From assembly GCA_019636345.1 (NCBI GenBank), contig JAHBXQ010000001.1, forward strand, positions 124,001 to 188,000: DNA of 64,000 nucleotides. The letters run 5' to 3'. Within the stretch, counting starts at the first letter, position 1. Each line of letters begins with the position of its first letter. Made by a program: the position numbers and the translations under genes. Below the pieces are notes generated by a model. That model was not told where the DNA came from. It searched no databases and saw only the letters and a list, made by a program, of their open reading frames with translations. This DNA comes from Pirellulales bacterium. GTDB lineage: Bacteria; Planctomycetota; Planctomycetia; Pirellulales; Lacipirellulaceae. This document shows positions 186-21,032 of this stretch, one piece after another.

Positions 186-298
186 TTAAGTGACTTACTG
201 GCTTGGGTTTAGCTGCTTCGCCTCCCGGCGGCGGAGCGGGCCTGGTCGTTTTGTATCCTGCCCCAGCGAGGGTCGCCCCGTCAGTACGGGTCTCGACG

Positions 299-1330
299 AT
301 GGCTGATAAGAAAAAGATGTCGGTAGCGGACATGCTGGCTGCGGCTCGCAAGGCCGACGGCGGCGGATCGTCGTCGGCCGACTCGGCCGCAGACGCGACT
401 CCTGCGCCGCCGGCTCCGGCCGAAACGGCCCCTGCGAGTGCGAGCCCGGCTAAGCCGATCCCCAAGCCGGGGGCTGCGGGGCGACCAAGTGCGGCCGACA
501 TTTTGGCGATGGCTCGCGCCGGCAAGGCCGCGGGCGCCGCGCCGGCTGCCGAGGCCCCGAAACCGGCTCCCAAGCCGGCCGCGGCTGACAAACCTGCGCC
601 CGCTGCGAAGCCCAAGCCGGCCGCCGCGGCCACTTCCGAGCCCCGCGACACCGCGAGCATTCTCGCCGCGGCTCGGAAAAAAGAGCGTCCCGGCCCGGTC
701 TCGAAGGCCGAGGCCGCCGGCGCTGCGAAGCCATCGCTGGCCGCCGCCGCCGCGAAGGCCAAACTGGCCGTCCCCCCGATGCCGCAGAAGCCGGACTACG
801 CCAAGCCGAAGCCGGCCGGCAAAGCGGCGGTCGCCGCTGCGGGGCAAGACCGTCGCGGGTTTTTGGCGACGGGCTTCTGGGCCCTGGGGGGCGTCTCGGC
901 CCTGTGGTCGCTTCTGGCGGTCCGATTCCTGTTCCCCAACGTCCTGCGCGAGCCCCCAAGCCGCTTCAAGGTCGGCTTCCCCGACGAGTACCCCACGGGT
1001 CTGGTCACCGAGAAGTTCAAGGCCCAGTACGGCGTGTGGATGGTCAACACCGAGTACAACGGCCAGCCGCAGATCGTGGCCCTGAAGACCGTGTGCACGC
1101 ACCTGGGCTGCACGCCGAACTGGCTCGAAGCGGAGCAGAAGTACAAGTGCCCGTGCCACGGCAGCGGGTTCTACAAGGACGGGATCAACTTCGAGGGTCC
1201 CGCTCCTCGGCCGTTGGAGCGCTACGCGATTCGCGTCGCTGACGACGGCCAGATCGAAGTCGACAAGAGCCGCACCTTCCAGGAAGAAATGGGGCAGTGG
1301 AGCGATCCTGCCTGTTTCATTCCCGCCTGA
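299..1330 (+). CDS. Rieske iron-sulfur protein with long Ala/Pro-rich N-terminal extension
   Basis: This is the Fe-S subunit of a cytochrome bc-type quinol oxidase; it takes the first electron from quinol and passes it on. The 2Fe-2S ligands sit in CTHLGC (residues 266-271) and CPCHGSGF (284-291), followed by the usual Gly-Pro-rich loop. One membrane anchor spans about 187-214. Residues 1-180 are an Ala/Pro/Lys-rich extension, making the protein (343 residues) about twice normal length. It contains three copies of a short helical motif (SVADMLAAARK at 8-18, SAADILAMAR at 64-73, TASILAAARK at 118-127). I chose ATG 299 because residues upstream in the same frame look like intergenic sequence. 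The cytochrome b gene follows after about 100 bases. Confidence 0.93.
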   Translation: MADKKKMSVADMLAAARKADGGGSSSADSAADATPAPPAPAETAPASASPAKPIPKPGAAGRPSAADILAMARAGKAAGAAPAAEAPKPAPKPAAADKPAPAAKPKPAAAATSEPRDTASILAAARKKERPGPVSKAEAAGAAKPSLAAAAAKAKLAVPPMPQKPDYAKPKPAGKAAVAAAGQDRRGFLATGFWALGGVSALWSLLAVRFLFPNVLREPPSRFKVGFPDEYPTGLVTEKFKAQYGVWMVNTEYNGQPQIVALKTVCTHLGCTPNWLEAEQKYKCPCHGSGFYKDGINFEGPAPRPLERYAIRVADDGQIEVDKSRTFQEEMGQWSDPACFIPA

Positions 1331-1435: not shown

Positions 1436-2212
1436 ATGCCGGGTTTAGGCGAAACGATTCGCGAGTCGCAGATCTGGAAAAGCATTTTCCGCCACCCGAT
1501 GCCCGTCGACCGACGGAATCGCATCGTGGTGATGCTGACCAACTTCTTCCTGCACCTTCATCCGGTGTCGATCAAGAAGCAAGGGATCGCCCTGTCGTAC
1601 ACTTGGTGCATGGGGGGAGTGACCTTCTTCCTGTTCCTGGTCGAGACCGTCACGGGCGTGCTGTTGATGTTCTACTACCGTCCCACGGTGCAGTGGGCGT
1701 ACACCGACATCCAGATGCTGCGCGACGTCCACTCGCTAGGGATCTTGCGCGAGATCCATCGCTGGGGCGCCCATGCGATGGTCATCACGGTGTGGTTGCA
1801 CATGTACCGGGTGTTTCTCACCGGCAGTTACAAGCCGCCGCGCGAGTTCAACTGGGTCGTCGGGGTGCTGCTCCTGCTGTTGACGCTGCTGTTGTCCTTC
1901 ACCGGCTATCTGCTGCCGTGGGACCAGTTGGCGGTGTGGGCGATCACGGTGGGGTCGAACATGGCCCGCGCCCATCCTTTCCTGGGACATGAAGGCCCGG
2001 GGCAGCAGCTCCTGACCCTGGGCGGGGTCGACATGATCACCAACGCCTCCGACGCGCGGTTCGCCTTGCTTGGCGCCCGCGAGGTGGGCGAGGAAACGCT
2101 CAATCGGTTTTACATTTTGCATTGTATTGCCATCCCGCTCGGGGTGTCGCTGCTCTTGGCGATCCACTTCTGGCGGGTCCGCAAGGACGGCGGCATCAGC
2201 GGGCCGCTGTGA
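1436..2212 (+). CDS. Cytochrome b N-terminal half (b6-like)
   Basis: This is the dihaem membrane subunit of the bc complex, which binds quinol and carries electrons across the membrane. The 258 residues match a cytochrome b6-type four-helix unit. One helix has HRWGAH...LH with 13 residues between the haem histidines. The fourth helix has two histidines separated by 14 residues (HCIAIP...AIHFW), the b6-like spacing. The segment [15 protein letters not shown] is the characteristic loop after the second helix. The remaining quinol-site half is encoded by the next gene, so cytochrome b is split as in b6f complexes. The gap to that gene is 110 bases of degenerate GAGGTC-like repeats. Confidence 0.93.
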
Positions 2213-2322: not shown

Positions 2323-3711
2323 ATGACTCACGGACTCACCGACGCGCTGTTCTTTGAGAAGGTTTCGTCCTTCTTGGTGTGGTACTACGTCATGCTGGCC
2401 GTCATGAACGGCGTTGCGGCGTTGTACTTGTGGCGCACCGGCGGGACGCGCACTTGGATCCCCTTGGCGGAACAAAACGGGCGGAAGTACGGCGTCACCA
2501 ACGTGGTCGTCTGGGTGCTGCTTGGCGGCGTCTTCGCCGTGTTGGCGGCTCTGGCCGGCACGGGGCTCGGAGGAAGCGGCGATTGGATGCCGTCGATGCC
2601 CGAGTCGTGGAAGAACTTCATCGACAACAGCACCGGGCCGGTCATCTACAGCCTCGGCACGACCGCGCTGTTGATCGTGCTGTACGTTTTCCGGCGATTC
2701 TTCGTCCGACCGGCGGTGGCGTGGACGATTCTCAACCTGATGCTGCTGTTTCTCGGTCTGTCGATGACCGACCGGGACTTCTTCGAGATCGTCGCCAAGC
2801 CGGACAACGTGCCGATCGTCATGTTGATCTTGCTCTTGGCGTTCTTCACCTGGGTGGGGACGTACCGGGCTGTGATCAACGACGACCGTATGGAACGGGG
2901 CGAACCGCCGCTGGAGAAGTTGGACGACGAGAAGGTGCTCGTGTGGCCCGATTTGGTCTACACCGAGTTGATCTGCATGATCGCCCTGACGGCGTTCTTG
3001 ATCTTCTGGGCGATCGCGCTTCCCGCGCCGCTGGAGGAGCCGGCCAGCAGCGTGAAGACCCCCAACCCGTCGAAGGCCCCGTGGTACTTCCTGGGCTTGC
3101 AGGAAATGCTCGTCTACTACGATCCCTGGATGGCGGGGGTCGTGTTGCCGCTGCTGGTCGTGAACGGGCTGATGGCCATCCCGTATCTCGACTTCAACAA
3201 GGCCGGCAACGGCTACTACACGATCAAGGAGCGGAAGTTCGCGTACCTGACGTTCCAGTTCGGGTTCTTGGAAATCTGGATCACGCTGATCGTGCTGGGC
3301 ACCCTGCTGCGCGGTCCGAACTGGAATTTCTTCGGGCCGTACGAGTACTGGGACGCTCACAAGGTCGAGGCGGCCGACAACGTCAACCTGTCGCAACTCT
3401 GGTGGAACAGTTGGCTGAATTCGAGCTTGCCGATCGCGGCCGCGGGGAGCAGTTTCTGGGTGCAAGCCGGCTTCATCCTGCTGCGGGAGTGGTTGGGCAT
3501 TGCGCTCACGCTCGGTTATTTCATCGTGCTGCCGCCGATCATGGCGCTGACGTTCTTCCGGCGTTATTTCCAGAAGATGGGACTCATCCGCTTCATGCTG
3601 ATGGCCAACCTGCTGCTGTTCATGGCGGCGCTGCCGATCAAGATGGTGCTCCGTTGGGTGTTCAATCTGAAGTACATCATCGCGATCCCCGAGTGGTTCC
3701 TGAATTTCTAA
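2323..3711 (+). CDS. Cytochrome b C-terminal (subunit IV-like) membrane protein, extended
   Basis: This subunit completes the quinol-oxidising half of the bc complex. The hallmark is NPSKAPWYFLGLQEM near residue 247, the counterpart of the PEWY region of subunit IV. Subunit IV is normally about 160 residues with three helices. Here the protein has 462 residues and roughly ten hydrophobic segments, including about five before the conserved core, so it carries extra membrane helices at both ends. The N-terminal part has no family I recognise and shows no haem-binding CxxCH. The start is the first ATG after the repeat spacer. The octahaem cytochrome gene follows and is expected to be the electron acceptor of the complex. 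Confidence 0.9.
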   Translation: MTHGLTDALFFEKVSSFLVWYYVMLAVMNGVAALYLWRTGGTRTWIPLAEQNGRKYGVTNVVVWVLLGGVFAVLAALAGTGLGGSGDWMPSMPESWKNFIDNSTGPVIYSLGTTALLIVLYVFRRFFVRPAVAWTILNLMLLFLGLSMTDRDFFEIVAKPDNVPIVMLILLLAFFTWVGTYRAVINDDRMERGEPPLEKLDDEKVLVWPDLVYTELICMIALTAFLIFWAIALPAPLEEPASSVKTPNPSKAPWYFLGLQEMLVYYDPWMAGVVLPLLVVNGLMAIPYLDFNKAGNGYYTIKERKFAYLTFQFGFLEIWITLIVLGTLLRGPNWNFFGPYEYWDAHKVEAADNVNLSQLWWNSWLNSSLPIAAAGSSFWVQAGFILLREWLGIALTLGYFIVLPPIMALTFFRRYFQKMGLIRFMLMANLLLFMAALPIKMVLRWVFNLKYIIAIPEWFLNF

Positions 3712-3798: not shown

Positions 3799-6700
3799 AT
3801 GCCTGCCACAGAACAAACTTGGCGTAACCAGAAGCTGCTGCACGTCGTGTTCGCAGTCAGCGCGGTCGTCATGGCGATTGCCACGATTTGGCTTGTCGCC
3901 AAGGACCAGAACCGCGAGTGGAAAGACCTGCAGCTTGCGGATCGCAAGAAAGACGCCTGGATGCTGGCGTCCCGGCGGGATTTTCTCGCCGACCAGTATT
4001 CGGACAAGGTGACCGACTACGAAATGCGGCTGCGCTTGGCGAAGGTCGAGCCGATCGATCCGGAACTGATCGAGGATTTCAAAGGCGAAGTCCTGTTGGA
4101 AGACCAGCGGCTGGCCGGGGCCGACACGATCGAGGAATTGGGCGATCAAGCGGCGGAAAAGGCGGCCGCGACGTCGGGCGACGCCGGTTCGACGAAGCAG
4201 TTCGATCGCCTCGACGCAGCGTTGACTGCGTTCAACGAGGCGGCGACCAAGGTCGCCGAGGCCCGTGACGTCGCGCAAGCCGAGGACGCCTCTTCCGACG
4301 CCCCTCGCCAATTGGCCGCCGCTGAAACGGCGGCGATCGCCGCGCGCGACAAGCTGGGCGCTCGCCTCGGCGCGTTCGTCGCCGAGGCTCGCCGGCGCGA
4401 AAACAAGCTCGTCGGCGAGAAGAAGTCGGCTAACGGCGTCCGCACCGCGGTCGTAAGCAAAAAAGGGCTGATGGTCCACGAAGGGGCGGGCCAAGAAGCG
4501 CTCGACAAGGTCCAGGCCGAGATCGACCAGCTTGACGAACAACTGGCCGAACTGACCGCCGAGATTTCCGCGGCCAAGACCTATCGCATGGACCTCGAGG
4601 CGATCGTCGCGGACGTCAACTCGCAGGAAACGGAGATCCAGAAGGAACTGGCGACGATCCACACCGAACTGACTCGACTGACCGAGCAGGTGAAGCTCAA
4701 TACGTCGAACGTGGGCGAATGGATCACGCGCTGGCCGGTGCTCAGCGCCCTGTACAACGGCAACATTCGCATCGATCAGATTTGGTTGCCGGATCTGACG
4801 ATCAACTACAACTTCTCGCAAGTGGCGCGGTTCGACCGATGCACGACGTGCCACCGGGCGATCTCGAAGACGGCTCCCGGGACGGCGACCGACCCGCTCT
4901 ATCCGAACGTGCCGAAGAGCGAGCGCGACTTCACGGCGACGATCCTCGCCCCCGAACGGCCTGAGGAACTCGATCTGGGCGCGGCCGCGACACGAACCAA
5001 GGCGCTGCGCGATCTGTACGGGCTGGTGCTGTCGGATTCGGGCATCATCAAGGGCGCCGACGTCACGGTCCACTACACGATCCCCGAGTCGCCGGCGGCG
5101 ATCGCGGGGCTTGAGCCGGGGGACGTGATCAGGTCGGTGGGCGGCGTCGCGGTGCAGAGCCCCGACGGCGTCAAGGACGGGCTGCTCAAGCTCGTGAAAT
5201 GGGAATCGCCCGTGGCGATCGAAATCCATCGCGGGCTCGATCAGCCCTTCACCGCTCATCCGCGGCTCGACCTGTATCTGACCGATCTCAGCCCGCATCC
5301 GCAAAAGGACTTCGGCTGCACGATCTGCCACGACGGCCAAGGGAGCGGCACGGAGTTCAAGTGGACGTCGCATACCCCCGACGATTGGAAGCAAGAGCAG
5401 GACTGGATCCGCAACCACGGCTGGTTTGACAACCACCACTGGATCTTCCCGATGCGGCCGGCGCGGTTCGCCGAGAGCAACTGCCTGAAGTGCCATCACG
5501 ACAAGGGGGGCTTGGAGCCGAGCGAGCGCTTCCCCGAGCCGCCGGCCGCCTCGCTGGTCGAGGGCTGGACCCTGGTCGAGGAGTACGGCTGCTACGGCTG
5601 CCATGAAATGAACGGCTACAACGGTCCCAATCAGCGGATTGGTCCCGACGTGCGGCTCGAGCCCGCGTTCCACGAACTTGCCCAAGCGATTCTGCGCGAC
5701 GAGAACCTCTCCGACGAGCAGCGGGAATTGGCCGAGCGGATCGTCGTCGCCCCTGACGATTCGGTCGCTCGGAACGAGCTGTTGACCGAACTAAGCACCG
5801 CCGCCGCCGAGGGCGAGACCGAGCTGTCGGCCCGGACTCTGGCGCTGGTGAGCGTGCTGAAGGACGTGGAGACCCCCGGAGTCTACCGCAAGTCGGGGCC
5901 CAGCCTGCGGCATCTCGCGGCGAAGGTCGAGTTCGATTGGCTCTACAGTTGGATTCGCAAGCCATCGGACTTCCGCCCGACGACCAAGATGCCGCAGTTC
6001 TTCATGCAGTACGAGCATCTCACCGAGGAGGAGGACGCCGCGGAACTTCACGCGAGCCTCAAATTCGAGCCGATCGAGATCCTCGCGTTGTCGCGATTCC
6101 TGCTGAACAACAGCGTCGAGTTCGAGTACCAGGACGCCCCCGAGAACGTCACCGAAGAGCCCTCGGCCGAGCGCGGCGCATGGCTGTTCGAGTCGCGGGG
6201 CTGTTTGGCGTGTCATTCGCACGGCGAGTTCCCCGAGGCCAAGGCGAATCAGGGCCCCGACTTGTCTGAAATCGCCGCCAAGCTCAACACGACCAAGGGG
6301 CGCAAGTGGCTCTACTCGTGGCTCAAGCAGCCGCACCGTTACCACCTGCGCACTAGTATGCCCGTGCTGTATCTCGATCCGATCGTCGAGACGGGCGAGG
6401 ACGGTCGCCCGTCGGGGGCTGTCACCGACCCCGCGGCCGACATCGCCGAGTATCTGCTCAGCGTGACGAGCGATTGGAAGCCGCAGGGGATCCCCGCGCC
6501 GCAACTGGACGCGGATCAGGAGCAGGCGCTGGCCGAACTGGCGCTGGAGTGGCTCAAGAGCGACGCGATTCCCGAGGCCCGGGCGAAGAAGTACCTGGCC
6601 GACGGGGTCCCCGATCACATGGCCTCGAAACTGAAGGCCGACGAGCGGGTCTTGCTGGGCATGAACGCTGCGAACCGCGTCGACAAGCAGCTTGAGTTCG

Positions 6701-8454
6701 TCGCTCGCCGGACGATCGGCAAGTACGGCTGTTTCGGCTGCCACGACATCCCCGGTTACGAGGACGCCAAGCCGATCGGCACCGCCTTGGCCGACTGGGG
6801 CCGCAAGGAGTCGTCGAAGCTGGCGTTCGAGAACATCGGCTCGTTCCTCGAGAAGCACGGCATCGATCCGTCGATCGAAGTCGAGTACGGCGACGGGGGC
6901 AAGCTTTCCGTAAAGCGCCTCGGTCACGACGACCATGCCCATGGCGGTCATGGCGGGCATCTCGATCCTGGGGCCAAGGGAATCGGCAAGGACGACAGCT
7001 ACTTCGTCCAGGCGATCAACAAGCATGTCCGCGACGGTTTCGCTTGGCAGAAGCTTCGCTACCCGCGCAGCTACGACTACAAGACGACTCGCAACAAAAG
7101 CTTCAACGATCGGCTGCGGATGCCGAAGTTCCCGTTCACCGACGACCAGCGCGAGGCGGTGATGACGTTCCTGCTGGGGTTGGTCAGTGAACCGCCGGCG
7201 CCGCAGTACGTCTATGCTCCGACCGGGGCCCAGAAAGCGATCGTCGAGGGCCGGCAGGTGCTCGAACGGTTCAACTGCGCCGGTTGCCACACGCTGAAAA
7301 TGGAGCAGTGGCAGTTCGGCTACCGGGACGGCGATTTCGACACCGCGTCGACGGTCGACGACTTTCCGTTCCTGAAGCCCGCGTTCACTCCCAAAGACGT
7401 CGCCGCTTCGCTTGCGGTCGATCAGCGAGGCATGATGCACGCCACTGTGCACGGCATGCCGGTTCTCGACGAGGAGACGGGGCAGGTCACGTGGGTCGAC
7501 GAGGATCGCGAGCCCATCTCGCCGGAAGAACTCGCCGAAGCGGAGGCCGAGGAAGGCGAAACGATCCCTGTGTTCTACAAGTTCACCCTCTGGCGCAACG
7601 CGCTGGTGGGAGGCGAACCGCGGCTGCGGGGCATCGAGGAATTGCTGATCCCGGCCGACCGGACGAAGTACGGCCCGGCCGAAGGGCAGGCGTATCCGGC
7701 GTGGGGGGGCGACTTGGCTCGGTACCTGTTCCCCAAGGTCATCGAAAAGGCCAAAGAGCGCAACCCGCAGGTCAACGGCAAAGAGGCCTGGGGCTGGCTC
7801 CCGCCGCCGCTGATGGAAGAGGGAGAGAAGGTGCAAACCGACTGGCTGCACGGGTTCCTTATGGATCCCAGCCCGTTGCGTCCTGCGGCGGTGATGCGAA
7901 TGCCCAACTTCAAGATGTCCTCGGCCGAAGCGGCGAAGCTGACCAATTACTTCGCCGCGGCGAGCGGGGCCGAGTTCCCGTACGAGTACAAGCCGCAACA
8001 GTCTTCGAGTTACGTCGCCGCGGTGGCCGCGGGAGATAAGCAGGAGACGAAGCTCGACGAGGCGATGCGAATCGTCACCAGCGGCAATTACTGCGTGAAG
8101 TGCCACGCGGTGTCGGACTTTCAGCCGCAGGGAGATCGCGCGACCTTCGGCCCCCCCTTGTCGGAGGTTTACCGCCGGCTGCGGCCCGATTACGTCCGCG
8201 ATTGGGTCGCCAACCCGAATCGAATTCTGCCGTACACGGGCATGCCGGTGAACATTCCCTATCGACCGGACGATCCGCAACTGGGGGGCGTCAGCCAGGA
8301 CCTGTACCATGGCACGAGCCTCGAGCAATTGCGGGGGTTGGTCGACTTGCTGATGAATTTCGACGCCTACGCTAAGGGCCGGACCGATGTGTCGGGGCTG
8401 GTGCAGGAGTCGGCGGCGCAGAGCGCTGCGGGGAGCGCCGCGGGAGGAGAATGA
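3799..8454 (+). CDS. Giant octahaem c-type cytochrome with PDZ-like segment, bc-complex partner
   Basis: The 1551-residue protein has one N-terminal membrane anchor (about 13-33), then a coiled-coil-rich region (about 60-320), then a periplasmic body. Eight CxxCH haem-binding motifs start at residues 348, 507, 562, 598, 802, 978, 1160 and 1432. A PDZ-like segment (AGLEPGDVIRSVGG) lies between the first and second motifs. A His-rich loop of alternating His, Asp and Gly sits near 1042-1055. Its place after the Rieske and split cytochrome b genes says it is the cytochrome c component that accepts electrons from the Rieske centre. The several spaced cytochrome-c-like segments look like fused monohaem domains. 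The exact electron route is inferred. No frameshift is visible along 4.6 kb. Confidence 0.9.
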   Translation: MPATEQTWRNQKLLHVVFAVSAVVMAIATIWLVAKDQNREWKDLQLADRKKDAWMLASRRDFLADQYSDKVTDYEMRLRLAKVEPIDPELIEDFKGEVLLEDQRLAGADTIEELGDQAAEKAAATSGDAGSTKQFDRLDAALTAFNEAATKVAEARDVAQAEDASSDAPRQLAAAETAAIAARDKLGARLGAFVAEARRRENKLVGEKKSANGVRTAVVSKKGLMVHEGAGQEALDKVQAEIDQLDEQLAELTAEISAAKTYRMDLEAIVADVNSQETEIQKELATIHTELTRLTEQVKLNTSNVGEWITRWPVLSALYNGNIRIDQIWLPDLTINYNFSQVARFDRCTTCHRAISKTAPGTATDPLYPNVPKSERDFTATILAPERPEELDLGAAATRTKALRDLYGLVLSDSGIIKGADVTVHYTIPESPAAIAGLEPGDVIRSVGGVAVQSPDGVKDGLLKLVKWESPVAIEIHRGLDQPFTAHPRLDLYLTDLSPHPQKDFGCTICHDGQGSGTEFKWTSHTPDDWKQEQDWIRNHGWFDNHHWIFPMRPARFAESNCLKCHHDKGGLEPSERFPEPPAASLVEGWTLVEEYGCYGCHEMNGYNGPNQRIGPDVRLEPAFHELAQAILRDENLSDEQRELAERIVVAPDDSVARNELLTELSTAAAEGETELSARTLALVSVLKDVETPGVYRKSGPSLRHLAAKVEFDWLYSWIRKPSDFRPTTKMPQFFMQYEHLTEEEDAAELHASLKFEPIEILALSRFLLNNSVEFEYQDAPENVTEEPSAERGAWLFESRGCLACHSHGEFPEAKANQGPDLSEIAAKLNTTKGRKWLYSWLKQPHRYHLRTSMPVLYLDPIVETGEDGRPSGAVTDPAADIAEYLLSVTSDWKPQGIPAPQLDADQEQALAELALEWLKSDAIPEARAKKYLADGVPDHMASKLKADERVLLGMNAANRVDKQLEFVARRTIGKYGCFGCHDIPGYEDAKPIGTALADWGRKESSKLAFENIGSFLEKHGIDPSIEVEYGDGGKLSVKRLGHDDHAHGGHGGHLDPGAKGIGKDDSYFVQAINKHVRDGFAWQKLRYPRSYDYKTTRNKSFNDRLRMPKFPFTDDQREAVMTFLLGLVSEPPAPQYVYAPTGAQKAIVEGRQVLERFNCAGCHTLKMEQWQFGYRDGDFDTASTVDDFPFLKPAFTPKDVAASLAVDQRGMMHATVHGMPVLDEETGQVTWVDEDREPISPEELAEAEAEEGETIPVFYKFTLWRNALVGGEPRLRGIEELLIPADRTKYGPAEGQAYPAWGGDLARYLFPKVIEKAKERNPQVNGKEAWGWLPPPLMEEGEKVQTDWLHGFLMDPSPLRPAAVMRMPNFKMSSAEAAKLTNYFAAASGAEFPYEYKPQQSSSYVAAVAAGDKQETKLDEAMRIVTSGNYCVKCHAVSDFQPQGDRATFGPPLSEVYRRLRPDYVRDWVANPNRILPYTGMPVNIPYRPDDPQLGGVSQDLYHGTSLEQLRGLVDLLMNFDAYAKGRTDVSGLVQESAAQSAAGSAAGGE

Positions 8455-8624
8455 CCTGAATGCGCCGCTGACGACAGTGCCTCGGCCTGTCGTCGGTCGG
8501 CCGCGAGCGGCTTGGCGAACACTGCGATCTTGCCCGACAAGCCGAAGACTGTTGAAACCACTCGACCTGGACCGATCGGAGTCGCCGCTCGACGGTCGGT
8601 TCGCAATTCGTCAGGAGCGTTGCC

Positions 8625-9419
8625 ATGTGTTGCTACCGTGATTGTCTGAAGAGTTTGAGTCTGTCGGCGAGCGCAGCGCTCGTTGCGGGGGCGCTGTGCG
8701 CCTCGGCCGGGGCCGCCGATTGGGGGACCATCAAGGGTCGCTTCGTGCTGGACGGCGAGGTGAAGCCGGCGCCGGTCAAGGTCGACAAGGACACGGCGTT
8801 CTGCGGTCCGTTCAAGCTGGTCAACGAGAGCGTGGTCCAGGGCGAAAACGGCGGGCTGGCCAACGTGTTCGTCTACTGCAGTTCGAAGAGCGTCGCGGTG
8901 CACCCCGACTACGAGACCGCCGCGAAGACGGTCGTGCTCGACAACAACCAGTGCCGTTTCGAGCCGCACGCGATGACGGTGTGGACCAAGCAGCCGCTGG
9001 AAATCCGCAACAGCGACCAGGGGATCGGCCACAACACGAATGCACAAAACTTGGTGGTCAACGCCAAGTTCAACGAGCAGGTGACCAACGACAAGCCGAT
9101 CGTCAAGGAATTTCAAAAGTCCGAGCCGGTGCCGACCGAGTTCGCTTGCAACGTCCACCCGTGGATGAACGCGTTGGTGTTGATCCGCGACAACCCGTAC
9201 ATGGTCGTTTCGGGCAACGATGGTTCGTTTGAACTGGCCAACGTCCCGGCCGGCAAGCACGAGTTCATCATCTGGCACGAGACCAAGGGCAACATGCGCG
9301 ATCTGGTCGTCGGCGGCGAGAAGACGAACCGCAAGGGGCGGATCGATTTGACCGTCAAGGCGGGCGAGACGCTCGACCTCGGCGACATCAAGGTCACGAA
9401 GAAGCAACTGGGTTTGTAA
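8625..9419 (+). CDS. Secreted cupredoxin-like protein with amicyanin-type copper motif
   Basis: The 264-residue exported protein has a signal peptide ending near residue 30. The probable type 1 copper ligands are a His in GHNTN and the cluster CNVHPWM, the same C-x2-H-P-aromatic-M spacing as in amicyanin. A short carboxypeptidase-regulatory-like beta segment follows (GSFELANVPAGKHEF). The ATG at 8625 is preceded by a good ribosome site (AGGAG). The next gene encodes a lipoprotein paralogue. Their position between the octahaem cytochrome and the oxidase genes suggests they are soluble or surface electron carriers, or copper donors for the oxidase. Copper binding itself is inferred from the motif. 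Confidence 0.8.
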   Translation: MCCYRDCLKSLSLSASAALVAGALCASAGAADWGTIKGRFVLDGEVKPAPVKVDKDTAFCGPFKLVNESVVQGENGGLANVFVYCSSKSVAVHPDYETAAKTVVLDNNQCRFEPHAMTVWTKQPLEIRNSDQGIGHNTNAQNLVVNAKFNEQVTNDKPIVKEFQKSEPVPTEFACNVHPWMNALVLIRDNPYMVVSGNDGSFELANVPAGKHEFIIWHETKGNMRDLVVGGEKTNRKGRIDLTVKAGETLDLGDIKVTKKQLGL

Positions 9420-9491
9420 GCGAACAGTCGGTCGTCGTCCCGTGCCGCGTCGGCCGGGGCGGCGCCGCTTGGTTTGTTGGGAGAGCGAAGC

Positions 9492-10397
9492 ATGGTTCGT
9501 CCGTTCCCTGGCCTCCGCGTGGCGCGGTCGTGGCGGCTTCTCGGTTGCGCGGCGATCGCGACGGCGGTCGGCTGTCAGCAGTCGACGAACATCGGCCCCG
9601 TGGCCGACGCCGGTCAGGCGGCGAAGATCGCGGCGGCGTTTCGCTCCGCGGGGGGCGAGACCTCGTCGAGCGCGGCCGAGTCGACCGGTACGGGGTGGGC
9701 CACCCTCAAGGGGCGGTTCACCTTCCTCGGCGATCCCCCGCCGATGCCGGCCTACGTCGTGAACAAGGACGAGGCCACGTGCGCTCCCGGCGGCAAAGCC
9801 CCGCCGCAAGAGTGGCTCAAAGTCGGCGACGGCGACGGGTTGGCGAACGTCGCGATCTACGCCCGCAGCGTAAGCCGCGTTCACGAATCGGCCGAGGCCC
9901 CCGACGAATCGTTGGTGTTCGACCAGAAGCAATGCGTGTTCCTGACGCACGTCGCGGCGGTTGTCGTGGGGCAGACGATCGAGATCAAAAACAGCGACGA
10001 CGTCGGTCACAACACCAACATCGCCGAGGGGAGCAACAAGCTCAATCAGACGATCCCGGTCGGACAGTCGGTGCCGTTCGTGCCGCAAAAGGAGGACGCC
10101 TCGCCGGCCGCCGTGCGGTGCAGCATCCACCCGTGGATGTTGTCGTACCTGCTGGCTCGCAAGAACGGTTACGTGTCGATCACCGGCCCGGACGGTTCGT
10201 TCGAGCTGGCCAACTTGCCTGCCGGCGAAGAGATCGAGATTCAAGTCTGGCACGAAGCGTCCGCGGGCGTCGTGCCCGAGGGGGACGTCGCCAAAGAATA
10301 CAAGTGGACCAAGAAGGGCCGCTTCAAGATCAAACTCGATGAAGACGAAACCCGCGAGTTGGATCTGCAGATTCCCGCGTCCCTGTTCGCCAGTTGA
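9492..10397 (+). CDS. Cupredoxin-like lipoprotein, paralogue of the preceding gene
   Basis: This protein of 301 residues starts at ATG 9492; a TTG six codons upstream is less likely. The lipobox ends AVGC, so it should be anchored to a membrane. Residues after about 60 align with the 8625-9419 product: the GxFxxxGDPPPMP entry, a Cys near the start, HNTN, the copper-type cluster CSIHPWM, and the C-terminal segment GSFELANLPAGEE. The two probably arose by tandem duplication and then separated into a free and an anchored form. An electron-transfer role between the bc complex and CuA is inferred from position; copper delivery to the oxidase is the alternative. Confidence 0.8.
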   Translation: MVRPFPGLRVARSWRLLGCAAIATAVGCQQSTNIGPVADAGQAAKIAAAFRSAGGETSSSAAESTGTGWATLKGRFTFLGDPPPMPAYVVNKDEATCAPGGKAPPQEWLKVGDGDGLANVAIYARSVSRVHESAEAPDESLVFDQKQCVFLTHVAAVVVGQTIEIKNSDDVGHNTNIAEGSNKLNQTIPVGQSVPFVPQKEDASPAAVRCSIHPWMLSYLLARKNGYVSITGPDGSFELANLPAGEEIEIQVWHEASAGVVPEGDVAKEYKWTKKGRFKIKLDEDETRELDLQIPASLFAS

Positions 10398-10467: not shown

Positions 10468-11799
10468 ATGAAGCACATACTTGCCAGCGTCCAATTGCTC
10501 CTCGTCGCGGCGGTCGTCGCCGCGCTTGCGGGCTGTGATCAGGTCGAACCGCCGAACTTTCGGCTGAACATGGTTCGCATGGTCGGACCGAACAACAACG
10601 AAATCGGCCCCGAGTACCGCCAAGAAATCGCCAACGTGCTCGACGGGTTGTTCGGCACGCCTGACGAACCGATCGCTCTCGCCGATTCGGGCTTGAGCCA
10701 GACCCGGCTCGCTCTGTCGGCCGGCCCCGCGTGGAGCGACGAGGGAGGCGTCGGTCACGGGCTCTATCGCAAACACTGCGTCCATTGCCACGGGGTGAGC
10801 GGCGACGGGCGAGGGCCGACGGCGCGGTTTCTCAACCCTTATCCCCGCGACTACCGGATGGGGACGTTCAAGTTCAAATCGAATGCCAACGCCGCTCGCC
10901 CGACTGACGAGGACCTCCGCCGGATCCTCTGGAACGGCGCCCCCGGGACCTCGATGCCCTCGTTTTCGCTGCTGGGCGAGGGGGAACTCGAATCGCTTGT
11001 CGAGTACGTGAAGTACCTCGCGATGCGCGGCGAGGCGGAGCGGGCGCTGGCCGACTACGTCTACAACGAGCTCGGCGAGGACGAAGTCGAAGGCGAGGAC
11101 GGCACGACGCGCCTGGTGCGGATCCCGCTCAACCCCGTCGACGGCCAATATGCCGACGAGCAGCGCGAGGCGATCGCCGAGATCGTCGCGGGGGTCGTCG
11201 AGGCGTGGGGCGAAGCCAACGATTCGATCGTCGTTCCGGCGGACGGCGACATCCCCGACGACGATCGCAGCGCGGAAGAGATCGCCGCGTCGGTCGCCAA
11301 GGGTCGCGAATTGTTCTACGACAAGCGGGCCAACTGTTACACCTGCCACGGGCCGACCGGCCTGGGCGACGGACAGACGACCGATTACGACAACTGGACC
11401 AAAGAGCAACTGGCCGTCATCGAAGCGACGACTCAACTCGAAAAGTCGATCGCCGAAGATCGGGCCGACCCGGAACTTGACGAAGAGGGCGAGGCCGAAC
11501 TCGCGGTCAACATCCAGTTGCTGGCCGACCGCAAGGACGTGCTCGCCACGCTTTACCCGGTGAGGAACGCGATCCCGCGTAATCTGCGGGCTGGCGTCTA
11601 TCGCGGCGGCCGACGGCGGGTCGACGTCTTCTGGCGGATTCATGAAGGGATCCCAGGGTCGCCTATGCCGGGCGCCGGGGCGACTTTGTCGAACTCCGAA
11701 ATCTGGAACATCGTCGACTACGTCCTGTCGCTGCCGTACGAAGCGGCCAGCACCCCTCAGAAGGCGCTGCCGACCAACATCCAGGCGATCGCCAAGTAA
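10468..11799 (+). CDS. Dihaem cytochrome c lipoprotein
   Basis: The 443-residue protein begins with a signal sequence and lipobox (LAGC), so it is membrane-tethered. Two haem motifs are present: CVHCH at about residue 104 and CYTCH at about 290. Each is followed by a plausible axial-methionine segment (TSMPSF and GSPMPGAG). The two cytochrome c domains are joined by an acidic linker. It lies directly before coxB and is the likely immediate electron donor to CuA, alone or with the cupredoxin-like proteins. I chose ATG 10468 because it gives a clean signal peptide; the open frame upstream is an overlap with the previous gene. Confidence 0.88.
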   Translation: MKHILASVQLLLVAAVVAALAGCDQVEPPNFRLNMVRMVGPNNNEIGPEYRQEIANVLDGLFGTPDEPIALADSGLSQTRLALSAGPAWSDEGGVGHGLYRKHCVHCHGVSGDGRGPTARFLNPYPRDYRMGTFKFKSNANAARPTDEDLRRILWNGAPGTSMPSFSLLGEGELESLVEYVKYLAMRGEAERALADYVYNELGEDEVEGEDGTTRLVRIPLNPVDGQYADEQREAIAEIVAGVVEAWGEANDSIVVPADGDIPDDDRSAEEIAASVAKGRELFYDKRANCYTCHGPTGLGDGQTTDYDNWTKEQLAVIEATTQLEKSIAEDRADPELDEEGEAELAVNIQLLADRKDVLATLYPVRNAIPRNLRAGVYRGGRRRVDVFWRIHEGIPGSPMPGAGATLSNSEIWNIVDYVLSLPYEAASTPQKALPTNIQAIAK

Positions 11800-11882: not shown

Positions 11883-12680
11883 ATGATCAAGCGAATTCTC
11901 AACTGGGCTCCCGGTTTCTGGGCGATCCTGTTCTTGCTGGTGCCGATCGGCGGGGTGCTGACCTTCGTCCTGGCGCCGAGCTATCGAATCTGGTTGCCGC
12001 AGGACGTCTCGGAGCACGGCCGGGTGATCGACGGCCTGTTCATGTTCATTCTTTATCTGACCGGGGTGGTGTTCATCGCGACCGAGTGCGTGATGTTCTA
12101 CTTTCTCTGGAAGTACAGCGAGAAGAAGACGACCGAACCGGTCGCATTCAGTCACGGCAGCCACTCGCTGGAGGTCGTGTGGACGATCATCCCCGCGGTG
12201 ACGCTGCTGTTCATCGCGATTTACCAGATGGACGCCTGGGCCGCGAACAAGATGCGGGCCCCCGAAATGGCTCCAACCTGCGAAGTGACCGGCCGGCAGT
12301 TCAATTGGGACTTCCGCTACCCGGGCCCCGACGGCGAACTCTATACGGCCGACGACATTGTGCGGACCGACGGCAAGCTTTACCTCCCCTACGGCGAGGA
12401 GGTGTTGCTGAAGATCACCAGCGCCGACGTGCTCCACAGCTTCTTCCTCCCGAACCTGCGGCTGAAGCAGGACGTGGTCCCGGGCATGGTGCAAAGCATG
12501 TGGTTCAAGGCGACCGAAGGGGGGAGCTTCGACATCGTTTGCGCCGAACTGTGCGGCTGGGGCCACTACAAGATGAAGGGCGAGATCACCCTGCTGCCCC
12601 GTCCAGAGTACGAGAAGAAACTGGAAGAACTGCGGGCCGACGCCAACACGTCCACCGTCGCGGTCCCCGCGGGGAACTGA
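11883..12680 (+). CDS. coxB: Cytochrome c oxidase subunit II
   Basis: This subunit accepts electrons from the donor cytochrome or copper protein at its dinuclear CuA centre. All CuA ligands are visible: His185, Cys220, Glu222 (backbone ligand), Cys224, His228 and Met231 in the VCAELCGWGHYKM region. Three hydrophobic stretches (about 11-31, 50-76 and 96-116) precede the periplasmic cupredoxin domain, one more than the usual two, so the first may be an uncleaved or cleaved signal. Length (265 residues) is normal, and there is no fused cytochrome c domain. It is followed after 62 bases by subunit I. Confidence 0.95.
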   Translation: MIKRILNWAPGFWAILFLLVPIGGVLTFVLAPSYRIWLPQDVSEHGRVIDGLFMFILYLTGVVFIATECVMFYFLWKYSEKKTTEPVAFSHGSHSLEVVWTIIPAVTLLFIAIYQMDAWAANKMRAPEMAPTCEVTGRQFNWDFRYPGPDGELYTADDIVRTDGKLYLPYGEEVLLKITSADVLHSFFLPNLRLKQDVVPGMVQSMWFKATEGGSFDIVCAELCGWGHYKMKGEITLLPRPEYEKKLEELRADANTSTVAVPAGN

Positions 12681-12742: not shown

Positions 12743-14521
<1,779 letters not shown>

Positions 14522-14589
14522 GATGCGTGATATGAGATGTGCGCTTGTCGATGTCAGTGGATTGCGGAGCGCACATCGCTTCCCGCATC
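14522..14589. repeat. Nested inverted repeat between ctaD and the haem A synthase gene
   Basis: A perfect ten-base inverted repeat (GATGTGCGCT at 14536-14545, AGCGCACATC at 14568-14577) is nested within an outer six-base pair (GATGCG 14522-14527, CGCATC 14584-14589). It begins at the ctaD stop. As RNA it would form a stable stem with a 22-base loop. It could limit read-through or protect the upstream message; there is no T-tract. Confidence 0.5.
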
Positions 14590-14638
14590 GGCAATCAAAC
14601 GTCAAACATCCCGCATAGAACTGCCCCAGACTGTTTCC

Positions 14639-15712
14639 ATGCCGTCGACCGCCGCATCGCCGCAAAGCTCGTGGCCCCATCGCTGGGCCTGGGTCTTGGC
14701 GTGCGCGACCTTTCCGCTCGTCTGGTGGGGCGGGTGGGTCGTCGCCTCGGGCTCGGGGATGGCCTTTCGCGATTGGCTCACCTCCGACGGCGTGGCGATG
14801 CCGCTCTACCCGTGGCTAAGTTCCGCCGGCGACAAGTTTATCGAGCACGGCCACCGGTTGTTGGGGATGGTCGTGGGCGCGCTGACGATCGTGTTGGTCG
14901 TCTCCTGCCATGTGGCGCCCGAGCGCACCGCAGTGCGGCGGTACAGCTTGGCTCTGCTGGTCGGGGTGATCGCTCAGGGGGCGCTTGGGGGTTTGCGCGT
15001 CGTACTCGACGAGCGAGTCGTCGCGCTGGTGCACGGCGCCACGGCGGCGAATTCCGGCGCGACGATGAGCGGCGGCGCGCGAGTCGTCGCGCTGGTGCAC
15101 GGCGCCACGGGCCCGCTGTTCTTCGCCGCCGCCGCCGGGATGGTCGTCCTCACCTCGTCGCGATGGCAGAACGAACCTTCGCTCACGAACCCCGGTCAAC
15201 CCGATTACAAGCTGCGACGCCTCGCTCTCATCTGTGCGGGGTTGGCCTATGCCCAACTGCTGCTGGGGGTCGTCGTGCGGCACAGCGCGCTGATGATCGG
15301 CGACCGGGCCCCGGCGCTGTTCGAGGGGGCCGCGTATTTGCACGTCCTCGTCGCGGCGGCGGTCGTCGTCCACTTAGCGCTCTTGGCGGTGCGGTCGCGT
15401 CGCGTGGAGCAACTGCGGGGCGTCACGGCCGGATTGGCTGCGCTCGTGGCCGTTCAATTCATCCTGGGGATCGCGACTTGGCTTGCCAAGTACGGCTGGC
15501 CTGCGTGGGCGACTTCGCTGGTCGGGGAGCGCCACTATCTCAATCGCGAGGCTGAATCGGTTCGGGCGATCATCGTCACTGGGCACGGCGCCATCGGGGC
15601 GCTGATCGTCGCCTTGGCGGTCGTCGCCGCCTTGCTTGCCGCAAAACGAATCGGAACGCACGTCGCCGCGGCATGCGGCGCCGCCGCCTGCGTCGGGAGG
15701 TCGTTTGCATGA
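14639..15712 (+). CDS. ctaA: Haem A synthase (COX15/CtaA family)
   Basis: This integral membrane enzyme oxidises the C8 methyl of haem O to a formyl group, supplying haem A to the oxidase. The 357-residue protein has the two-fold four-helix plan, with [10 protein letters not shown] (residues 67-76) and further conserved histidines near VRHSAL, LHVLVAA and GHGAIG. An unusual internal duplication repeats [10 protein letters not shown] at 126-135 and 148-157, which doubles a His-containing segment close to a helix start. ATG 14639 gives the expected N-terminus; earlier in-frame residues are intergenic. It overlaps the next gene by four bases (ATGA), so the two synthases are translationally coupled. 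Confidence 0.88.
15013..15110 (+). repeat. In-frame 32-base direct repeat inside ctaA, 66-base period
   Basis: The identical 32 bases occur at 15013-15044 and 15079-15110, offset by 66 bases (22 codons), so the reading frame is kept. The intervening 34 bases code for a small Ala/Gly/Ser segment. The structure looks like a recent in-frame tandem insertion within the haem A synthase gene. Confidence 0.8.
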
Positions 15713-16647
15713 GCCGCGCCTCGACCAATCCCCGCTTCTCCCCGCCGGCAGCCGCGCTGACCGTTCCGCAGTCGCACCGGGCGAGCGCCGCTCGCTGGCG
15801 CGATTATCTGCAACTCGCCAAACCGCGGATCGTGACGCTGGAACTGATCGTCGCCGCCGCGGCGGCTTGCATCGCGGCGCCCCACGAGCTCGATCCGCGC
15901 GTGCTCGTCGAGGCCCTGGCCGCGACCGCCCTGGTGGCCGGCAGCGCCAGCGCGGCCAATCAACTGCTCGAACGTCGCGTCGACGCCCGCATGCGCCGCA
16001 CGGCCGACCGACCTCTGCCCGCAGGGCGGGTGACGCCGCTCGAGGCGGCGGCGCTGTCTGCCGTGACGCTGGTCGTCGGCCTGGCGTGGCTTGTGCTGCG
16101 CGTGAATCTGCTGACGGCCGCCTTGGGCGCGGCAAGCTGGATATTGTACGTGGCGATTTACACCCCGCTGAAAACTCGCACGCCGTTGAACACCGTCGTC
16201 GGCGCCGTCGCCGGGGCGTTGCCGCTGCTAATGGGCTGGACCGCAACCGGCCGGCCCCTGGGTCTGACCGCTGCAGCGCTGGCCTGCGTGCTGTTTCTGT
16301 GGCAGTTTCCCCACTTCATGGCGATCGCGTGGCTTTATCGCCGCGACTATGCTCAGGCGGGCCATCGCATGCTTACGGTGGTCGATCCGACGGGCGTGCG
16401 CGCCGGCGTGCAGGCCGTGCTCGGAGCGCTGGCGATCTTGCCGGTGAGCCTTGTGCCCGCCCTGGCGCCGACCAGCGGCAGCCCGGGCGTTTACTCGGTG
16501 TGGGCCTTGACGCTGGGGGGAGCCCAACTCGCTCTGGCGATTCGCTTTTGTTTCGACCGCGACGACGCCTCGGCACGGCTGCTGCTCAAGAGCACGCTCG
16601 TGTTCCTCCCCGCCTGGATGGGCGTCCTGCTGATGGTGAGCCTCTGA
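15709..16647 (+). CDS. ctaB: Haem O synthase (protoheme IX farnesyltransferase)
   Basis: This UbiA-type prenyltransferase transfers farnesyl to protohaem to make haem O, the substrate of the preceding enzyme. The polyprenyl-diphosphate binding block is clear: [20 protein letters not shown] near residues 82-101, with its Asn and Asp residues. A second acidic loop is [13 protein letters not shown]. About eight or nine helices and 312 residues fit the family. The start ATG 15709 overlaps the upstream stop (ATGA) and has GGAGG about nine bases before it. The N-terminal 30 residues before the first helix are variable Ser/Pro-rich sequence. Confidence 0.93.
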
Positions 16648-18420: not shown

Positions 18421-19359
18421 ATGTCCGCAGACGATGCGCTGATGGTTTCGCACGTCTCGCATCGCTACGGCGAGCGAACGGCCCTCGACGATTTGTCCCT
18501 GACCGTCCGTCGAGGCGAGGCGTTTCTGTTTCTCGGACCCAATGGCAGCGGCAAGACGACCCTGTTCCGGCTGCTGTCGACGCTCATTCCGTTGCAGCAG
18601 GGCGAGGTCGTGGTCATGGGCTGCAGCCTGCGGACCGCCGCTGCGGCCGCGCGGCGCGAGATCGGCGTCGTGTTCCAGGCGCCTAGTCTCGATCGCAAGC
18701 TCACGGTCGCGGAGAACTTGAAGCATCACGGCCGGCTTTACGGGCTCGGGGGCGCGCCGTTGCGAGCGGCGATCGAGGCTAAACTCGCCGCCGTCGGACT
18801 TGCCGATCGGGCGAGCGAACTTGTCGAAAAGCTCTCGGGCGGGATGAAACGCCGCGTCGAACTCGCCAAGGCGCTCCTGTCGCGGCCGAAGCTGCTCTTG
18901 CTCGACGAACCGAGCACGGGGCTCGACCCTGCGGCGCGGATCGACCTGTGGCGAGCCCTGGGAGATTTGCAGCGGACGCAGGGGACGACGCTCGTCGCGA
19001 CGACTCACTTGCTCGAGGAAGCCGAGCGAGCCGACCGCATTGCGATTCTGGACCAAGGCCGACTCGCGGCGCTCGATTCGCCCGACGCTCTGCGGGCCGC
19101 CGTCGGGGGGGATGCGATCGTTATCCGCTGTGCTGACCCGACGCAGCTCGCCGCGGCGATCGGCGAGCGCTTTGACTGCCGCTCGATGGTCGTCGATGGC
19201 GCCGTCCGGCTGGAGGTCCCCGACGGCCACCTTTGGATCCCGCGCCTGGTCGAGTCCTTTCCGCAGGAGATCCTCAGCGTCTCGCTGGGAAAGCCGACTC
19301 TGGAGGACGTGTTCATCGACCTCACAGGACACAAGTTTGCCGCCGTTGCCGAGGAATAG
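18421..19359 (+). CDS. ABC transporter ATP-binding protein (ABC-2 type exporter)
   Basis: This nucleotide-binding subunit is expected to power the permease encoded next. Walker A GPNGSGKTT is at residues 39-47, the signature LSGGMKRR near 138, Walker B LLLLDEPSTGLD near 158, and a switch His follows in TTHLLEEAE. The 312-residue length fits the CcmA/NodI-like class. The C-terminal segment after about residue 220 is variable. Embedded among oxidase and Sco genes, it may export something needed for oxidase biogenesis, but the substrate cannot be read from sequence. Confidence 0.9.
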   Translation: MSADDALMVSHVSHRYGERTALDDLSLTVRRGEAFLFLGPNGSGKTTLFRLLSTLIPLQQGEVVVMGCSLRTAAAAARREIGVVFQAPSLDRKLTVAENLKHHGRLYGLGGAPLRAAIEAKLAAVGLADRASELVEKLSGGMKRRVELAKALLSRPKLLLLDEPSTGLDPAARIDLWRALGDLQRTQGTTLVATTHLLEEAERADRIAILDQGRLAALDSPDALRAAVGGDAIVIRCADPTQLAAAIGERFDCRSMVVDGAVRLEVPDGHLWIPRLVESFPQEILSVSLGKPTLEDVFIDLTGHKFAAVAEE

Positions 19360-19382
19360 GAGCGATCTCGTCGCGGAGGTCG

Positions 19383-19409
19383 CAGCCGACTCATAGATCG
19401 AGTCGGCTG
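19383..19409. repeat. Ten-base-pair hairpin between the ABC subunit genes
   Basis: CAGCCGACTC (19383-19392) and GAGTCGGCTG (19400-19409) form a perfect stem with a seven-base loop. It lies in the 163-base spacer between ATPase and permease. There is no T-run, so it is more likely a message-stability or attenuation element than a classical terminator. Confidence 0.55.
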
Positions 19410-19522
19410 GCCGCGAAATGGGCGACTGGCGATCGGCGACGTTTGCCTGAGTTTTGAAGCGTTGTGGCACGAGAGGGGCTGCCCGCCGCAGCGAGAGTCG
19501 CTTTCCCCGACCAGCAGATTTT

Positions 19523-20335
19523 ATGAACGATCCGCCTTTGACAACCGAAGCGAGCCCGCCCGGTTGGGCCGCCGCCCTGACGCTGGCTGAGCGAGAGCTT
19601 GTGCGTTTCTTCCGACAGAAGAATCGCGTCTTCGGCGGGCTCGGACAGCCGATCATCTTCTGGCTGCTGTTCAGCGAGGGGCTACGGCCTAACGACCTGG
19701 GCTACGCCCACTTTTTTCCCGGCACGGTGGCGATGATCCTGCTGTTCACGGCGATCTTCGCGACGATCTCGGTGATCGAGGATCGCCGCGAGGGATTCCT
19801 GCAGTCGGTGCTCGTTTCGCCGGCGCCGCGGTGGGCGGTAGTGCTCGGCAAGGTGCTCGGCGGGGCGGCGATCGCGCTGTTGCAAGGACTTGTGTTCCTG
19901 GCCCTCGGCTGGGCGACGATGCCGCTGGCGAGTTCGCCGGGCGAACTGGTCGCGGCGGTGATCCTCATGGCCGTGATTGCGGTTGCCCTCACGGCGCTGG
20001 GGTTCTCGATCGCGTGGCGGATGGACTCGACTCAGGGGTTCCACGCCGTGATGAGCGTGTTCCTGTTGCCGATGTGGCTGCTGTCGGGGGCGTTTTTCCC
20101 CGCGGGGGGCTCGGGATGGCTCGCCTGGACCGTGCGCGCGAATCCGCTCACCTACGGCGTGGCCGGTTTGCGGCATTACCTTCGCTTTGCCGATGCGAGC
20201 GAAGTCGTCGCGTCCCCCGTTGCCAACCTCCCCTCGCTCGCGACATGCTGGGGAGTGACGCTCGGCTTTGCGGCGCTGTTGATCGCGATCGCGTGGCGTT
20301 CCGCCCGAGCGCGAACCGCGGGAGATTTGCTGTGA
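19523..20335 (+). CDS. ABC-2 type transporter permease
   Basis: The 270-residue protein has about six membrane helices and the ABC-2 pattern: an N-terminal cytoplasmic stretch with RFFRQKNRVFGGLGQPIIFW, a central EDRREGFLQSVLVSP loop that contacts the ATPase, and a C-terminal LPMWLLSGAFFP segment. It is the membrane partner of the preceding ATP-binding protein. ATG 19523 was chosen over an upstream frame extension that encodes spacer sequence. Its stop overlaps the GTG start of the Sco gene, so all three are probably co-translated. Confidence 0.88.
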   Translation: MNDPPLTTEASPPGWAAALTLAERELVRFFRQKNRVFGGLGQPIIFWLLFSEGLRPNDLGYAHFFPGTVAMILLFTAIFATISVIEDRREGFLQSVLVSPAPRWAVVLGKVLGGAAIALLQGLVFLALGWATMPLASSPGELVAAVILMAVIAVALTALGFSIAWRMDSTQGFHAVMSVFLLPMWLLSGAFFPAGGSGWLAWTVRANPLTYGVAGLRHYLRFADASEVVASPVANLPSLATCWGVTLGFAALLIAIAWRSARARTAGDLL

Positions 20336-20964: not shown

Positions 20965-21032
20965 GGTTCCAACCATGGAGTCCCACGCTCCCGCCGTCCC
21001 CACGTCTCCACTTCCAAGAAAAACCGCACCGT

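Follow-up and report, generated by a model that had tools for sequence, protein, structure and literature searches.

An octahaem cytochrome c, a putative subunit of a b6f-like Rieske/cytochrome b complex, encoded beside cupredoxins and an aa3 oxidase in a Pirellulales bacterium

The window analysed here is a stretch of 64,000 nucleotides from a Pirellulales bacterium of the class Planctomycetia and the family Lacipirellulaceae (GenBank assembly GCA_019636345.1, contig JAHBXQ010000001.1, positions 124,001 to 188,000); its features are numbered from its first letter and all those given below lie on the forward (+) strand. An open reading frame (ORF) with an ATG start (3799..8454) encodes an octahaem cytochrome c of 1551 residues. 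Its gene stands in the order Rieske protein, cytochrome b6, subunit IV, octahaem cytochrome c, two cupredoxins, dihaem cytochrome c and aa3 oxidase. The initial annotation, made from the letters alone, had described an octahaem subunit of a bc complex with a membrane anchor, a coiled coil, a PDZ-like module between haems 1 and 2 and a His-rich loop, and each of these elements of the protein was recovered. CxxCH motifs begin at residues 348, 507, 562, 598, 802, 978, 1160 and 1432, and none of 2000 composition-matched shuffles of the protein contained more than one. Hydropathy detects a single hydrophobic segment, the N-terminal membrane helix at about residues 11-33 (3829..3897). The coiled coil spans residues 228-308 (4480..4722), with coiled-coil-type Pfam matches and a heptad (3.5-residue) periodicity equalled in 7 of 2000 shuffles; the periodicity of the stretches 36-110 and 130-205 is unremarkable (1964 and 140 of 2000 shuffles as high, respectively). 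The PDZ domain lies between haems 1 and 2, at about residues 405-480 (5011..5238; PDZ_6, E = 2.4e-7 at residues 428-459; PDZ_2, residues 421-479), and the His-rich loop has five His within residues 1043-1054 (6925..6960).

The strongest single result is that the eight haems are matched by eight further candidate ligands. It comes from 109 octahaem proteins, the window's included, that have exactly eight CxxCH motifs and more than 780 residues and are uncut by a contig end; 102 of them are distinct, seven pairs being the same gene fetched twice. Thirty-two columns of His, Met or Cys are conserved in at least 90% of these proteins, and they consist of the 24 CxxCH residues and exactly eight others, which are H487, H500, H525, M731, M854, M1108, M1368 and M1482 in the numbering of the window. 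Seven of the eight are present in 109/109 proteins and M1482 in 108/109. Conservation of the CxxCH residues follows in part from the selection for eight motifs; that of the additional His and Met residues is independent of it.

We infer from these columns that haems 1-3 are bis-His and haems 4-8 of the His/Met class I type, with the eight extra residues as distal ligands. The CxxCH of haem 1 (residue 348; 4840..4854) and that of haem 3 (residue 562; 5482..5496) flank a segment (5257..5373) in which the haem 2 motif (residue 507) is accompanied by the three invariant His, the candidate distal ligands of haems 1-3. Five domains follow, each pairing a CxxCH with a Met that is C-terminal of it and lies within an MP motif: haem domain 4 (CxxCH 598, Met731; 5590..5991), haem domain 5 (802, Met854; 6202..6360), haem domain 6 (978, Met1108; 6730..7122), haem domain 7 (1160, Met1368; 7276..7902) and haem domain 8 (1432, Met1482; 8092..8244). 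A Pfam scan of 32 family members (alignment A1) found Cytochrom_C in all 32 and Cytochrome_C7 in 31. The family profile matched 141 distinct chains among the PDB sequences, and each of the 60 listed matched best over about one haem domain.

Class I domains are also found in sulfur and nitrogen enzymes. One could ask whether the protein is a large multihaem redox enzyme, acting for instance on nitrite or sulfur compounds, that shares the operon by chance, and SoxX-like and FixO-like domain matches would fit such an enzyme. However, every haem can be assigned an invariant distal His or Met, so that none looks open to a substrate, and a catalytic family is absent among the domain matches listed. 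We therefore regard an enzyme of this kind as very unlikely.

Three more specific identities were tried and rejected. An octahaem enzyme like hydroxylamine oxidoreductase (HAO) has no HAO-type match among the listed window hits: these belong to the class I, c7 and c3 types, and 8/32 relatives give a weak match to Cytochrome_C554. A protease of the HtrA/MamE kind is matched only in its PDZ part, with no trypsin-like protease domain. Cytochrome c1 or f was rejected on domain content.

The gene order around the homologues ties the protein to a Rieske/cytochrome b complex. Forty loci were taken from forty planctomycete genomes picked from the best matches of a genome search; each has a homologue with exactly eight CxxCH motifs, with cytochrome b and subunit IV genes directly upstream in 36/40 and a Rieske gene in 35/40. 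With five compact homologues as queries, a scan of named genomes added the best 80 of 153 relatives (79 loci), which come from anammox genera, many Acidobacteriota and single metagenome-assembled genomes (MAGs) of Hydrogenedentota, Lentisphaerota, Omnitrophota and Neomarinimicrobiota. Each phylum beyond Planctomycetota and Acidobacteriota is represented by one MAG contig, and two loci, L109 and L111, resemble mislabelled anammox sequence. Gene order was counted in 82 copies preceded by 4.5 kb or more of sequence, at 81 loci (L116 has two copies, one of them cut), or in 77 when duplicates of the same gene are set aside. Cytochrome b and subunit IV are encoded upstream as separate genes in 74/82 copies and, with the single fused ORF of L141, in 75/82; a Rieske gene accompanies 72/82 copies and an NAD(P) oxidoreductase gene 14/82. 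The duplicate-free counts are 70 for cytochrome b (71 with fused L141), 71 for subunit IV, 69 for Rieske and 12 for the oxidoreductase. The Rieske gene was not found at L072, L105 or L110. L102 and L109 carry the oxidoreductase too and stand outside the count of 82 because their octahaem ORFs are split or cut. This order, together with a relative in Kuenenia, supports the assignment to a bc-type complex made in the initial annotation.

Eight CxxCH motifs are the rule among the 134 locus ORFs that have an octahaem protein as best match: 108 complete and 7 cut ORFs have them. Other ORFs cut by contig ends have six (three ORFs), seven (one) or four (one), and that of L102 is split by a break into parts with six and two. 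The rest are complete ORFs with four haem motifs (nine), two ORFs with two motifs and one that is haem-free. The tetrahaem relatives, of about 500 residues, lie near Scalindua-type copies (L057, 16873-18438, and eight more complete ORFs, three of the nine being the same gene fetched twice).

According to the part of the article covered here, cytochrome f is replaced in two complexes of Kuenenia by a cytochrome c with six or eight haems (Hauser et al., 2025; PMC12954380). The description of the window protein as going far beyond cytochrome c1 or f holds, but a subunit with that many haems in this place was already in print. Our comparison was made through Kuenenia hertensis (L087): L087 encodes a homologue with eight CxxCH motifs, about 32% identical to the window core, behind Rieske, cytochrome b, NAD(P) oxidoreductase and subunit IV, a gene set consistent with Kustd1480-1485 of K. 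stuttgartiensis as described in the same part of PMC12954380. In that account the Kuenenia complex shares with the window a b6-type four-helix cytochrome b, a separate subunit IV and a Rieske protein, along with a multihaem cytochrome c that has a membrane helix and long helices and replaces cytochrome f. Like proteins of the Kustd1485 type, the window protein has eight CxxCH motifs, an N-terminal helix and a haem region that can be aligned, here with the K. hertensis homologue and relatives. The two differ in that the window is without the NAD(P) oxidoreductase and has cupredoxins, a dihaem cytochrome c and an aa3 oxidase in addition, and in that its protein has 1551 residues against about 950 and carries the PDZ and His-rich inserts. 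The kind of subunit is thus known from Kuenenia, and the window holds an oxidase-linked, wider-spread variant.

In the window, the Rieske [2Fe-2S] subunit (203..1330; Pfam Rieske, E = 3.4e-8) has CTHLGC and CPCH motifs, and the true start of its ORF is likely at 299 (MADKKK...). The cytochrome b6-type subunit (1436..2212; Pfam Cytochrome_B, E = 5.5e-39) has the four haem-ligand His together with Cys58 and His40, and the subunit IV-like protein, with a long N-terminal part (2323..3711; Pfam Cytochrom_B_C, E = 1.2e-4), is encoded adjacent to it. Among 87 cytochrome b sequences of the family, 82 of them distinct, the axial H108, H122 and H244 are present in 87/87 and H229 in 86/87, and Cys58, the candidate for haem cN/ci, in 86/87. 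The window thus shares with cytochrome b6f the split between cytochrome b and subunit IV, a Cys at the place of haem cN/ci and the four axial His. It differs in having an octahaem cytochrome c in place of cytochrome f, an interface His, and the sequence KAPWYFLGLQE where b6f has PEWY. APWYF is invariant in 19/19 aligned rows, and subunit IV therefore lacks the Glu that the quinol site usually has, for which reason we term the complex b6f-like and do not file it as b6f.

The same genome encodes a second Rieske/cytochrome b complex, of the Kuste3096-3097 plan (L073, 5766-7715 and 7790-8356, minus strand). Rieske and cytochrome b are common to both, but in L073 the cytochrome b is fused to a dihaem cytochrome c part, has PEWY and lacks equivalents of H40 and Cys58. 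The genome has two further COX1-type matches, and a search of it for a bd oxidase gave no match. In the actinobacterial bcc-aa3 supercomplex, too, complex III has gained a c haem and is joined by an aa3 oxidase, but its c haems number two against the eight of the window.

From AlphaFold3 models, the covered part of the Kuenenia study proposes that His62 residues from two Kustd1481 chains bind a novel haem b, close to Arg266 and Lys267, which would offer electrons a route to NAD(P)+; it gives His43 as the equivalent in Kuste4571 (PMC12954380). Window H40, R249 and K250 match Kustd1481 His62, Arg266 and Lys267 as given there (PMC12954380), and at L065 and L087, both anammox loci, the LHLHP motif has its first His at residue 62, with Arg266-Lys267 following. 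The three residues are present in 87/87 cytochrome b of the family, at only 16 of whose loci an oxidoreductase is found (14 labelled as such in the tree, plus L057 and L065, which the tree labels 'none'). In a control of seven other cytochrome b, H108, H229 and H244 are kept in 7/7 and H122 in 6/7, and H40 is missing in 4/7; the three that have it are L164 and the second complexes of two anammox-family genomes, in which it takes position 43 when numbering starts at an internal Met, as in Kuste4571. R249 and K250 are less telling, since most control cytochrome b have Arg and Arg/Lys there. His40, a candidate ligand of a haem at the dimer interface, thus marks a wider group that includes the octahaem-linked family.

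An NAD(P)H-forming complex as proposed for Kuenenia, in which the interface haem would pass the low-potential electron to an acceptor in the cytoplasm and the high-potential one would enter the octahaem chain, would fit the invariance of these three residues. Yet the window operon is without the oxidoreductase gene and its partner there is an oxidase; moreover, the 14/82 copies with an oxidoreductase (12/77) all go with an anammox-group cytochrome b. In the cytochrome b tree, whose root serves for drawing only and gives no direction of change, the window groups with oxidase-linked members of its class (7 rows, 98/84). A separate, supported group (98/98) is made up of the anammox rows, among them every one that bears the oxidoreductase. 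We consider NAD(P)H formation in the window highly improbable. As the interface His is invariant also where the oxidoreductase is absent, the haem that it would hold, if real, should serve something more general, and the published idea becomes directly testable.

Downstream of the octahaem gene, the window encodes what reads, with the Rieske and cytochrome b genes, as a complete path from quinol to oxygen. Two homologous proteins follow, the first with a C-terminal beta domain and a candidate type-1 copper site of His136, Cys175, His178 and Met181 (8625..9419), the second with the same ligands (9474..10397). Pfam gave no family above cut-off for either (Copper-bind at E = 0.2 for the second). 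We identify them as amicyanin-like cupredoxins with a predicted copper site on the strength of three things: the conserved ligands (H136 in 85/87, C175 in 87/87, H178 in 86/87 and M181 in 84/87 sequences, 79 of them distinct), a confident model of the first (predicted local distance difference test score, pLDDT, 88.6) and its matches to amicyanin (Foldseek, E = 4.0e-6) and other cupredoxins. Against plastocyanin and amicyanin the model gives Z 10.0-10.3 and a root-mean-square deviation (rmsd) of 1.7-2.1 Å over 82-85 aligned residues, and against NirK Z 10.9. The window proteins share with amicyanin and plastocyanin the fold and the His-Cys-His-Met pattern and differ from them in the extra C-terminal beta domain, with 10-20% identity among the matches listed. 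Next come the dihaem cytochrome c, with a lipoprotein-like signal (LAGC), two CxxCH motifs and a Cytochrom_C match (10468..11799; E = 3.8e-20), and the oxidase genes for CoxB, subunit II (11883..12680; TIGR02866 over cut-off; CuA motif CAELCGWGHYKM), and CoxA, subunit I (12743..14521; Pfam COX1, E = 1.4e-146).

We conclude, with a probability of about 0.72 for the statement as a whole, that the protein is the octahaem c-subunit of a b6f-like Rieske/cytochrome b complex and a conduit from the Rieske centre through cupredoxin or dihaem cytochrome c to the oxidase. The complex is probably menaquinol-oxidising. The octahaem protein would take the place that cytochrome f or c1 has in textbook complexes, and electrons would pass from the Rieske centre along the haem chain to the cupredoxin and/or the dihaem cytochrome and from there to CuA of the oxidase.

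Several observations weigh against this conclusion. The oxidase is a local partner: the initial annotation had proposed a haem wire to the oxidase, and among loci of the window's class (L033-L052) a cupredoxin and a dihaem cytochrome c are indeed present in 20/20 and CoxA in 17/20, but CoxA lies within 9 kb in 8/10 same-class loci versus 2/57 others with 8 kb downstream (L128 and L134, and L054 too at shorter range). Two cupredoxins and a dihaem cytochrome are, furthermore, encoded between the octahaem protein and the oxidase, and cupredoxin genes are found downstream in 58/104 octahaem copies with downstream sequence. Even within the window's own family, only one of three sampled genomes has the family-type cytochrome b, the other two being without it. 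Bis-His haems often have a low potential, and three of them would be out of place in a simple downhill path that starts at the Rieske centre.

The structure models add to these doubts. AlphaFold2, run on residues 335-1530 of the octahaem protein alone, gave a model of medium confidence (pLDDT 66.9, predicted template modelling score 0.70) that is poor over the PDZ domain. Foldseek returned no match for it at E <= 0.001, an absence that was not counted as evidence; the top rows cover single domains (SoxX, caa3 subunit II), and most of the others have a very low probability. Haem domain 5 of the model aligns with SoxX at Z 10.6 and an rmsd of 2.7 Å over 94 residues, a Z that falls inside the tool's stated background for helical models (up to about 13). 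The match supports the class I reading of this predicted domain, for which the sequence carries the weight.

Some copies stand apart from any cytochrome b gene. Seven of 82 (6/77 duplicate-free) have none beside them: L049, L058, L078, L091, L096, L100 and L104, of which L058 is the same gene as that of L096. At L096 and L114 the octahaem gene, with no cytochrome b directly upstream, adjoins a cupredoxin, a dihaem cytochrome c and a Cyt_bd_oxida_I-like protein resembling cytochrome bd subunit I (13958-15997 and 8060-10363, respectively). The octahaem gene of L114 is also that of L061 in genome G018, where a family-type cytochrome b lies further along the same contig. Such copies indicate that the octahaem protein can also serve elsewhere, and in the extreme case it would be a general periplasmic electron bus, only loosely tied to Rieske/cytochrome b, that also gives electrons to, or takes them from, further membrane enzymes, for instance the bd-like cluster. 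We find this unlikely, because 75/82 copies lie directly behind subunit IV; comigration of all subunits is cited as well, in the covered part of PMC12954380, but for Kuste4569-4574, which is not of the window's type. The copies without cytochrome b, the bd-like neighbours, the rarity of CoxA outside the class and the bis-His haems rather favour more than one acceptor for what we still take to be the c-subunit of a b6f-like complex.

Close cytochrome b of the family type (E <= 1e-75) are found in 168/391 sampled planctomycete genomes, with a patchy distribution; a wider tally of 252/391 includes weak single-domain cytochrome c matches and was not used as a prevalence. In the parts of the literature covered, a b6f complex is mentioned for Planctomycetes and Nitrospirales (PMC4013037), the idea is cited that multihaem cytochromes c were Rieske acceptors in early bc complexes (PMC5317091), and Phycisphaerales are credited with an alternative complex III and no bc1 (PMC11266412). 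Among the literature titles listed, none deals with an octahaem subunit in a complex of this type from bacteria other than anammox ones, and an earlier mention is possible. Two points are new within the literature searched: the oxidase-linked version without the NAD(P) oxidoreductase, in Acidobacteriota and others and with cupredoxin neighbours, and the invariance of the proposed interface-haem His at loci that mostly lack the oxidoreductase. An anammox oddity thus becomes a multi-phylum family in which eight haem sites are fixed and whose genes, in the window's class, adjoin those of a respiratory oxidase. A more speculative proposal, which we advance tentatively and think somewhat doubtful, is that these complexes form a third natural class of Rieske/cytochrome b complexes beside bc1 and b6f, defined jointly by an octahaem cytochrome c, in which three haems are bis-His and five His/Met, and by a haem b that the two cytochrome b monomers share at their interface and that couples them. 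On this view, the NAD(P)H-forming version of anammox bacteria would be a specialised offshoot of a respiratory quinol oxidase widespread across Planctomycetota, Acidobacteriota and their neighbours.

The two inserts, both present in the window as the initial annotation had stated, do not belong to the family core. A PDZ match is found in 10/32 members of alignment A1, every one from the window's class, and in none of the 17 out-of-class members. It lies between haems 1 and 2 in 8/32, namely in the window protein and in those of seven members of the same order (7/7 relatives examined). In two further members of the class it lies elsewhere, between haems 5 and 6 in L046 (residues 646-741) and between haems 6 and 7 in L051 (residues 816-867). 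PDZ modules therefore seem to have entered these proteins on three or more independent occasions within the class, and this repetition suggests that they have a role there. The window's PDZ retains a Gly-hydrophobic loop of the peptide-binding type (YGLVL) and may, by that loop, bind the tail of some partner. The His-rich loop passes a five-in-fifteen test in 10/109 octahaem proteins. Both inserts are lineage-specific additions, possibly for docking or assembly.

Beyond the oxidase subunits, the window encodes a CtaA-like (COX15) assembly protein (14537..15712; Pfam, E = 6.1e-11) and CtaB, haem o synthase (15673..16647; TIGR01473 over cut-off). After the oxidase genes, at 18421-21521, an ABC transporter pair, a Sco1-like protein and a small membrane protein were recognised by eye.

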